Positions 12,757-63,697 of a DNA stretch of 64,000 nt are shown piece by piece (the stretch's first letter is position 1; the number at the start of each line of letters is the position of its first letter). Origin of the DNA: Erythrobacter sp. HKB08 (GTDB taxonomy: Bacteria; Pseudomonadota; Alphaproteobacteria; Sphingomonadales; Sphingomonadaceae); assembly GCF_004114695.1 (NCBI RefSeq), contig NZ_CP035310.1, positions 248,001 through 312,000 on the forward strand, written 5' to 3'. Below the pieces are notes generated by a model. That model was not told where the DNA came from. It saw only the letters and a list, made by a program, of their open reading frames with translations, and did no database searches. Position numbers and translations under genes: made by a program.

Positions 12757-15063
12757 GTGAAATCCTTCACTTCGCTCAAGGCGATGGCAATGCTTGGCGC
12801 CGGTATGGCGCTCGTCCCGCAGGTTGCATATGCGCAGGACGCCGAGGCAGATGAACCCGAGGCACGCCAGGGTGCGCTCGACAGCTTCGGCACCATCGTC
12901 GTTACCGGTACCAAGACCCGCGACGCGGAAAACGTCCAGGACGTTCCGGTCGCCGTTACCGCATTCAATTCCGAGAGCCTCGAAGCTCTCAAGGTGCGTG
13001 ACGTCCAGTCGCTGACCTACAGCGCGCCGAACGTCAGCCTCGACCAGATCGGCACCAGCCGCGGCACCGCGAACTTCTCGATCCGCGGCCTCGGCATCAA
13101 CTCCTCGATTCCCTCGATCGACCCGACGGTCGGCGTGTTCGTCGACGGCGTCTACCTCGGCTTCAACGGCGGCGTCGTGTTCGACCTGTTCGACCTCGAC
13201 AGCGTGGAAATCCTGCGCGGTCCGCAGGGCGTCCTGTTCGGTCGCAACGTGACCGGCGGCGCAGTGCTGATCAACACCGGCAACCCGACCAACGAGTTCA
13301 CCGGCAAGTTCCGTGCTGCAGTCGACGGCCCGCTGCTCGACGGCGGCCGTGGCGGCGCGAACTACACGGTCAGCGGCGTCATCTCCGGCCCGGTCGTGGA
13401 AGACACGCTGCTGTTCAAGCTCGGCGGCTACTACAACAAGGACGAAGGCTATTTCCGCAACCTGTTCGACGGTTCGAACCAGGGCGAAGCGGAAACCAAG
13501 ATCCTTCGCGGCGCGCTCGAAGGCCGCTTCGGCGACCTGATGGTTCGCGGCAAGCTCGACTACTTCACCAGCGATGGCGACGGCCCGGCAGGCCAGAACC
13601 GCGGCCTCTTCCGCCGCGACACCTTCGACCTGTCGATCGACGAGCCCGGCTTCTACGACAACGAGATCTGGACCGGCTCGCTGACCGCCGAACTCGACAT
13701 CGGCCCGGGCACGCTGACCAATATCTTCGGCTATCGTGAATACTCGGCCGAGACGCTGGGCGACATCGACAGCCTGCCGATCTTCGGCTTCCACTCCAGC
13801 ACGGAAACCGAGCAGGACCAGATTTCGAACGAGCTTCGCTACGCGATGAGCTTCGACAATCTCGAACTGACCGTCGGCGGCTTCTACTTCGACCAGTCGA
13901 TCGCCTACACCGAAGTTCGCGACCTTCCGCCGCTCAGCCCGCTGACCTTCTACGGCGGCGGCAGCCAGGACCATGAAGTCATCGGCGCATTCGCCAATGG
14001 CCAGTTCTACCTGACCGACGACCTCAGCGTCATCGCGGGCATCCGCTGGAGCGAGGAAAGCAAGGACGCAGGCGTGACCTACGTGCGTCCGCGCCCGGCA
14101 TGTTCGGTAGTCGGCGGCACCTGCCCGACGAGCGGCACCAACCCGTTCATCCCGACCGAGAACAACGGCTTCACCGATTCCAACAAGTGGAGCAACTGGT
14201 CGCCGAAGCTGGGTCTCCAGTACGAATTCGCGACCGGCCAGGTCTATGCGCACTGGACCCGCGGCTATCGTTCGGGCGGCTACAACTTCCGCATCACCAA
14301 CGCGAACGTGTTCGAGAACGTCGTGGTCCCGGCAACGGGCGGCAACTTCTCGTTCGATGAAGAGCGCGTCGACAATTACGAGCTGGGCGGCAAGTTCCAG
14401 ACCGACGACGGTTCCTTCACCCTGAACGCGGCGATCTACCTGACGAAGATCAGCGACATGCAGCGCGAGGTGAACCAGAGCTCGCCGACCGCAGGCGTCT
14501 CGCAGTTCATCCTCAACACCGCAGACGCGACGATCCTCGGCTTCGAGGCGGAAAGCCGCATGCGCGTGTCGGATTCGCTGCTGTTCACGGCCAATGTCGG
14601 CATCATCAACGACGATTACGACAGCGTTCAGTTCGACATCTCGGGCGACGGTGTGATCAACGATGCGGACCTCGCGCTGCGCCTGCCGCGCGTGCCGGAA
14701 ATCACTGCCGGTGTCGGCGCGATCCACGAACTCGACCTCGGTTCGAGCTCGATCGTCAGCCGCGTGAACCTGCAGTACCGCGACGAATTCGCCTATACCG
14801 ACAACAACTTCGGTTACGTCCAGGACATCACCAACCTGGATGCGAACGTCACCTGGAACACCCCGATGGAAGGGCTTGCCGTGTCGGTTTACGGCAAGAA
14901 CCTGCTCGACGGCGTCCAGGCGGGCGGCGACACGCAGCTGCCGTTCGGCGGCCCGCTGTCCAACGGCGTGAACCGTCCGTTCGACTTCTTCCCGGCAGGC
15001 GGCACGCTTTCGCCGCTGAGCAAGGGTCGCCAGGTCGGCGCGGAAGTCACCTTCGAGTTCTGA
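12757..15063 (+). CDS. TonB-dependent outer-membrane receptor
   Basis: A 768-residue receptor: Sec signal peptide (cleavage after VAYA, about residue 26), TonB-box-like IVVTGTKT (about 47-54), plug domain with FSIRGLGIN and VEILRGPQGVLFGRNVTGG, then a beta-barrel ending in the terminal phenylalanine EFTFEF-like strand (VTFEF). It starts at a GTG with a good AGGGAG site 6 bp upstream. Codon use is unusually regular (rich in AAC, GAC, TTC, GGC), which suggests high expression. No Fur box or riboswitch is evident in the 76 bp upstream, and no cognate enzymes are beside it, so the ligand is unknown. Confidence 0.92.
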   Translation: MKSFTSLKAMAMLGAGMALVPQVAYAQDAEADEPEARQGALDSFGTIVVTGTKTRDAENVQDVPVAVTAFNSESLEALKVRDVQSLTYSAPNVSLDQIGTSRGTANFSIRGLGINSSIPSIDPTVGVFVDGVYLGFNGGVVFDLFDLDSVEILRGPQGVLFGRNVTGGAVLINTGNPTNEFTGKFRAAVDGPLLDGGRGGANYTVSGVISGPVVEDTLLFKLGGYYNKDEGYFRNLFDGSNQGEAETKILRGALEGRFGDLMVRGKLDYFTSDGDGPAGQNRGLFRRDTFDLSIDEPGFYDNEIWTGSLTAELDIGPGTLTNIFGYREYSAETLGDIDSLPIFGFHSSTETEQDQISNELRYAMSFDNLELTVGGFYFDQSIAYTEVRDLPPLSPLTFYGGGSQDHEVIGAFANGQFYLTDDLSVIAGIRWSEESKDAGVTYVRPRPACSVVGGTCPTSGTNPFIPTENNGFTDSNKWSNWSPKLGLQYEFATGQVYAHWTRGYRSGGYNFRITNANVFENVVVPATGGNFSFDEERVDNYELGGKFQTDDGSFTLNAAIYLTKISDMQREVNQSSPTAGVSQFILNTADATILGFEAESRMRVSDSLLFTANVGIINDDYDSVQFDISGDGVINDADLALRLPRVPEITAGVGAIHELDLGSSSIVSRVNLQYRDEFAYTDNNFGYVQDITNLDANVTWNTPMEGLAVSVYGKNLLDGVQAGGDTQLPFGGPLSNGVNRPFDFFPAGGTLSPLSKGRQVGAEVTFEF

Positions 15064-15078
15064 TGATCGTTTGGATTT

Positions 15079-15172
15079 CGCACCCCATCCGGGGTGCGAT
15101 TTCCTCGCTCATGCGACCTGAAGGTCGCGTCGCTGCGGGCGGGCAGTCGCCCTTGCGATCGCCAAGCGATCG
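15079..15172 (+). repeat. multi-hairpin intergenic repeat, copy A
   Basis: A run of palindromes with fixed linkers. H0 is CGCACCCC/GGGGTGCG (15079-15086 with 15091-15098), which may also terminate the TonB receptor mRNA. A conserved linker TCCTCGCTCAT follows. H1 is GCGACC/GGTCGC (15113-15118 with 15123-15128). The linker GTCGCTGCGG precedes H2 GGGC/GCCC (15141-15144 with 15149-15152). Then TTG and H3 CGATCGC/GCGATCG (15156-15162 with 15166-15172), followed by an A-run. A second copy at 63555-63654 keeps the linkers but changes stem sequences in a paired manner. It lies between convergent genes, just before a bidirectional terminator. Confidence 0.8.
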
Positions 15173-15189: not shown

Positions 15190-15219
15190 AAAGGGCGCTC
15201 TTCGGGGCGCCCTTTCTTT
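15190..15219. terminator. bidirectional terminator between TonB receptor and yggS-type gene
   Basis: A 9-bp perfect stem AAAGGGCGC (15190-15198) and GCGCCCTTT (15207-15215) with a loop of 8 bases, then TTTCTTTA on the plus strand. The left arm gives a shorter T-run on the minus strand. It sits directly between two convergent genes, so it probably stops transcription from both. Confidence 0.75.
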
Positions 15220-63532: not shown

Positions 63533-63554
63533 ATTCGTCGCCTCATGCGCCGGC

Positions 63555-63654
63555 GGATGCATTCGCATCCTTGGCTATCCTCGCTCATGCGACCTCGCGG
63601 TCGCGTCGCTGCGGACGGCCGTTCGGCCTTGCGGTCCTCGGGTTCCGAGGCCCG
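63555..63654 (+). repeat. multi-hairpin intergenic repeat, copy B
   Basis: Same plan as copy A: H0 GGATGC/GCATCC (63555-63560 with 63565-63570), linker TCCTCGCTCAT, H1 GCGACC/GGTCGC (63589-63594 with 63599-63604), linker GTCGCTGCGG, H2 GGCC/GGCC, extendable to GGCCG/CGGCC (63617-63621 with 63624-63628), TTGCG, then H3 CCTCGG/CCGAGG (63636-63641 with 63645-63650). Linkers match copy A exactly while H2 and H3 arms differ in a paired manner. It lies between the thiolase terminator and the DUF4126-like gene start. Confidence 0.8.
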
Positions 63655-63697
63655 GAAACAGAAACTCCCGCCGTGTCCCTTAAAGGACGGGCGGGAG
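63655..63697 (-). terminator. terminator of the thiolase gene at the right edge
   Basis: CTCCCGCC (63665-63672) pairs with GGCGGGAG (63690-63697), with an inner GTCC/GGAC stem. Read on the minus strand the hairpin is followed by TTTCTGTTTC, so it terminates transcripts coming from the thiolase gene 50 bp away. Confidence 0.8.

Follow-up and report, generated by a model that had tools for sequence, protein, structure and literature searches.

Erythrobacter sp. HKB08 carries one copy (copy A) of a structured repeat where a TonB-dependent receptor gene and a gene of the Ala_racemase_N family converge, and a second (copy B), upstream of a DUF4126 gene, in the same window (the whole 64-kb stretch of DNA analysed, which is part of a single 2.75-Mb contig). 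The unit is about 95-130 bp long and consists of four hairpins in a chain and three fixed linkers, in the order T-tract, H0, TCCTCGC, H1, CGCTGCGGGCG, H2, CTTGCG and H3 (Table 1). Direct reading bears out what the preliminary description had reported for the two copies: the linkers TCCTCGCTCAT, GTCGCTGCGG and TTGCG recur in the same order and at the same spacing, the H1 arms are identical with different loops (TGAA in copy A, TCGC in copy B), one H2 pair is swapped from G-C to C-G (GGGC/GCCC to GGCC/GGCC), and H0 and H3 differ in sequence between the copies while being paired in each. The exact 11-mer of linker 1 occurs only twice within the window, once in each copy. The fold of copy A beats 200 of 200 shuffles (z of -5.5 as RNA and -4.2 as DNA), that of copy B is weaker (-1.65 as RNA and -1.9 to -2.5 as DNA), and both strands of each copy fold about equally well as DNA.

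About 18 nt past copy A, between the convergent genes, there is a bidirectional terminator-like inverted repeat, which is separate from the element. This stretch gave sub-threshold sRNA- or terminator-like matches in Rfam, and a stricter consensus terminator scan gave no call on it. The element itself was discarded as an intrinsic terminator, since the terminator scan finds none at copy A or copy B.

Table 1. Positions of the parts of copies A and B (window coordinates), with doublets of the home contig and tandem arrays in relatives.
Feature	Position	Strand	Structure or context	Basis
T-rich left end, copy A	15064..15078	+	directly after stop codon of TonB-dependent receptor gene (12805-15063)	
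H0, copy A	15079..15098	+	CGCACCCC-ATCC-GGGGTGCG, 8 bp, loop ATCC	direct reading, RNA and DNA folding
Linker 1, copy A	15102..15112	+	TCCTCGCTCAT	exact-match search, alignment
H1, copy A	15113..15128	+	GCGACC-TGAA-GGTCGC, loop TGAA	direct reading, alignment, covariance
Linker 2, copy A	15129..15138	+	GTCGCTGCGG	alignment
H2, copy A	15141..15152	+	GGGC-AGTC-GCCC, loop AGTC	direct reading, arm swap, covariance
Linker 3, copy A	15153..15157	+	TTGCG	direct reading, alignment
H3, copy A	15157-15171; 15156..15172 with extra C-G pair	+	GATCGC-CAA-GCGATC; with extra pair CGATCGC/GCGATCG, loop CAA	direct reading, folding
Terminator-like inverted repeat	15190..15219	.	AAAGGGCGC...GCGCCCTTTCTTT	
Copy B, whole	63540..63655	+	type-2 left end GCCTCA-TGCGCCGGC-H0-TTGGC, then H0, H1, H2, H3	
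H0, copy B	63556-63571		GGATGC-ATTC-GCATCC	
Linker 1, copy B	63578-63588		TCCTCGCTCAT	
H1, copy B			GCGACC-TCGC-GGTCGC	
Linker 2, copy B	63605-63614		GTCGCTGCGG	
H2, copy B			GGCC-GTTC-GGCC	
Linker 3, copy B	63629-63633		TTGCG	
H3, copy B	63636-63650		CCTCGG-GTT-CCGAGG	
Convergent doublets, home genome	G000:C1 201594-201812, 634155-634373, 2156053-2156277		59-60 nt gap	
Tandem array loci	L097 672-813; L103 1407-2060			

Copies in the home genome and its relatives

A BLAST search with the element core found about nine full copies and some partial ones in the home genome, and a covariance model built from the alignment of these nine detects 25 sites at E<=5, 17 of them at E<=0.01. The pattern TTTCCTCGCTCAT..GTCGCTGCGG has 2 matches in this genome, its relaxed form 5 and the control 0, while a generic linker pattern has 14 matches versus 0 for the backward-read control, which gave 4 in total over 60 genomes. 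With the 17 model copies and many more in other Erythrobacteraceae, the earlier view of a real repeat family stands, and a single REP palindrome is indeed less ordered than four hairpins with constant linkers. Two 5' types are known, copy A being of type 1 and copy B of type 2. The left end of type 1 is a T-tract (T at 40-69% at most positions 26-36 nt 5' of CCTCGC) followed by CGCRCCCC-ATCC-GGGGYGCG, and that of type 2 is GCCTCA-GCGCCGGC-arm-CATCCG-arm-TTGGC; wider variants retain TCCTCG, CTGCGGRCG and CTTG and have different H1 modules.

Of 60 related genomes, 18 have a match to the covariance model, 17 of them in the same family and one, a weak match, outside it, and a pattern scan of named genomes gave at least 119 stretches, nearly all in Erythrobacteraceae, with carriers in Erythrobacter, Porphyrobacter, Qipengyuania, Altererythrobacter and Actirhodobacter and in a few more broadly labelled MAGs. 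The plasmid and phage collections searched contain no match, so that a reading as plasmid or phage cargo was dropped. The proposed comparison with Rfam gave no family match: nothing scored above a family gathering threshold, only weak terminator- or sRNA-like scores appeared, and a known structured RNA was therefore set aside as well. The linker sequences were not found printed in the open literature, and RepRanger gives a count alone for Erythrobacter cryptus.

Most copies are singlets, and neighbouring copies at most 300 bp apart form 19 convergent, 15 tandem and 0 divergent pairs. Convergent doublets are mostly spaced by 50-80 nt, and in three doublets of the home genome one partner belongs to another H1 class. 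Tandem arrays, with units of 70 bp and 155 bp that include H3, occur in two relatives (G010 and G006). H1 is more similar within genomes (0.685) than between genomes (0.493), a pattern suggestive of concerted evolution or of recent spread.

REPINs are likewise described as convergent doublets at similar spacing, with tandem arrays and extragenic dispersal (PMC3116915), and this arrangement would be expected of a true REPIN system whose RAYT (TnpA-REP) was lost here, is too diverged to detect or is supplied elsewhere. Such a system seems improbable, because the aligned conserved linkers lack the GTAG tag and Y1_Tnp (RAYT) genes, of which the home genome has 0, are missing from G000 (the home genome), G001, G002, G004, G010, G011, G016 and G017 and from most copy-rich relatives, and occur mostly in genomes without element copies. 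In its RAYT-driven form the REPIN was rejected, since the transposase does not accompany the copies.

Complementarity of the arms and turnover at one site

Among 93 distinct copies placed on the model, in an alignment that is fitted to the structure and so leans towards pairing, 96.8% of the pair cells of H0-H2 pair versus 78.7% (sd 0.7) when shuffled, pairing falls to 28-46% when the partner is slid, and 16 of the 17 modelled pairs show changes on both sides. A model-free test, in which each copy's own arm was compared with arms exchanged between copies, gave pairing of 0.906 versus 0.625 for H0 and 0.950 versus 0.697 for H2, and the 5-bp stem of H3 forms with the own arm in 0.667 of copies versus 0.110 with swapped arms. 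The H1 signal is marginal (0.857 versus 0.776, with a permutation maximum of 0.849), and H1 counts in the named-genome copies are biased because the selecting pattern fixes the H1 arms. Arms that change without complementarity would speak against a conserved fold, and the outcome of both tests favours the fold. As for the linkers, earlier described as constant and single-stranded, the constancy holds; the single-strandedness is not established, since RNAalifold pairs linker 1 with linker 2 (CUCGC/GCGGG), and their invariance is uninformative on pairing.

The space between rpmH and rnpA offers a view of the element at one site in many species. About 20 of the 75 loci inspected there (L302 was set aside on visual inspection, its rpmH match being false) carry a strict element and about 10 more a divergent version. 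H0, H1, H2 and H3 all differ between species at this site yet pair, and four species of one genus have four different versions with paired arms. Both filled and unfilled species exist, with sequences too diverged to define a junction. No clean insertion with flanking duplication came to light, which, like the absence of a Y1 transposase from the home genome and most copy-rich relatives, counts against the reading favoured below. Species that lack the element also have the GCGGGCTCC..GGAGCCCG hairpin, so that H3 at this site may be an old host hairpin. Separately, many relatives (L253-L322), element or not, have in the rpmH-rnpA space a GGGCTCC..GGAGCCC hairpin followed by GTTT that looks like an attenuator or terminator.

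Gene ends, and pairing as DNA or as RNA

Neighbouring genes, taken from a home-made codon-usage gene caller, were called for 110 copies, and 109 of these fall outside the genes called. In 77 of 109 the 5' neighbour is oriented towards the element, and only 6 copies lie between divergent genes, both being raw counts. Type-1 copies usually have the stop codon 24-46 nt ahead of CCTCGC, which places it no more than about 20 nt from H0, and type-2 copies are more often reversed relative to neighbouring genes (9/22). An exception to the gene-end preference is seen in five species (L137, L140, L180, L210 and L239), where an H0-less element immediately precedes the start codon of a conserved gene, apparently the same in each (beginning MSARIY or similar).

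This placement would suit a cis-acting RNA, namely a 3' UTR hairpin chain with an RNA-selected fold that shields mRNA against 3'-5' exonucleases or aids termination: most type-1 copies start a few bases past the stop of a co-directional gene, several copies fold strongly as RNA, a terminator-like repeat lies downstream of copy A, and use between rpmH and rnpA is recurrent. Moreover, a T.G pair in H1, nearly fixed in 79 copies, fits a fold of the top strand; like the post-stop placement, which suits an RNA role, it counts against a DNA reading. The remaining stem pairs, in contrast, are poor in wobbles. With the arms registered by Watson-Crick pairs only and that T.G pair left out, the element's stem cells comprise 2308 Watson-Crick, 16 G.T (0.7%), 33 A.C and 42 other, the reverse of the G.T to A.C balance in tRNA stems from the same loci (226, 11, 3 and 0 of 240 cells), in a wobble sample that is modest, comes from related copies and draws many of its A.C cases from one H0 pair. 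With G.U on the mRNA strand rare and A.C twice as common, type-2 copies often opposite to the neighbouring genes and no Rfam match, a cis-acting RNA is judged unlikely; the scarcity of G.T looks more like inverted repeats kept as DNA than like an RNA helix.

The earlier statement that covarying stems mean selection on the fold is not a necessary conclusion, as near-exclusive Watson-Crick pairing with scarce G.T is also compatible with a DNA-level correction of palindromes or copying between repeats. Template switching during replication can correct quasi-palindromes, and gene conversion can act between copies. The two processes could re-match the arms after each mutation and yield complementarity without any selection on the fold, as the almost flawless Watson-Crick pairing of the arms, in which both kinds of mismatch are scarce, the fast in-place turnover at rpmH-rnpA and the concerted H1 within genomes would lead one to expect; since the conserved linkers, the convergent doublets and the placement would be left unexplained, this account is rather doubtful. 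We also propose, tentatively, that the strong covariation of this natural family of repeats is made and maintained at the DNA level, by hairpin-templated copying or an enzyme that reads hairpins, rather than by selection for an RNA fold. If so, the family would mislead covariation-based RNA discovery.

The reading favoured here, at a probability of roughly 60%, is that of a REP/BIME/REPIN-like, non-autonomous, dispersed mosaic repeat specific to Erythrobacteraceae that is spread or rewritten as DNA hairpins. The identity of the element is fairly secure, and for its mode of spread and its role in the host we infer the following steps. The linkers would serve as conserved identity tags, with the arms free to vary while complementary, and copies may be spread or rewritten at the DNA level through folded hairpins, either extruded or single-stranded. 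The agent could be some enzyme, or template switching and gene conversion that re-match both arms. Positions immediately 3' of genes would be ones at which copies are tolerated or retained, and as hairpins in the mRNA the copies may protect the ends of transcripts there. The element adds a structured, family-specific class of repeat without a known mobiliser, in which many natural stems change completely in place yet remain paired, and it opens to direct test the old question of what spreads and maintains the palindromic repeats of bacteria, and that of whether RNA selection lies behind every case of covariation.

Relation to known repeat families

The published REP superfamilies bear GTAG or CGTC tags, and the CGTC REPs of alphaproteobacteria have stems of 8-9 bp with loops of 4-5 nt, lie mainly between unidirectional or convergent genes near 3' ends and have no link to a transposase (PMC3733652). 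The element resembles the latter in H1 (8 pairs, counting the outer A-T and T.G, with a loop of 4), in its placement at gene ends and in having no linked transposase. It differs from them in being a unit of four hairpins and three fixed linkers, in few copies and a restricted family, and in its lack of a terminal CGTC tag or CCA tail: no CGTC (or TGTC/CCTC) tag beside an AT-starting stem with a CCA tail was found, and H1 is flanked by GCTC before and CGCTG after. Canonical CGTC REPs were also sought in the home genome, where CGTCAT..ATNCCA gives 3 matches, none of which reads as a palindrome.

With the REPINs and GTAG REPs that have a RAYT (PMC3116915, PMC8266576) the element shares inverted doublets, tandem clusters, dispersed extragenic copies and hairpins. 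In contrast to these it is a much longer multi-hairpin unit with 17-25 copies instead of hundreds, without GTAG and in a genome without Y1_Tnp. Since it bears neither tag and its own genome yielded no RAYT, it is placed outside the GTAG and CGTC REP and REPIN families.

The E. coli BIMEs and other intergenic mosaics differ from the element in sequence, and the fixed linkers with freely varying arms and the restriction, within the sample, to Erythrobacteraceae set it apart from them. Like them, it combines palindromic modules, dispersed outside genes, into mosaics, that is, hairpin modules in alternating orientation that are intergenic and lie mostly 3' of genes.
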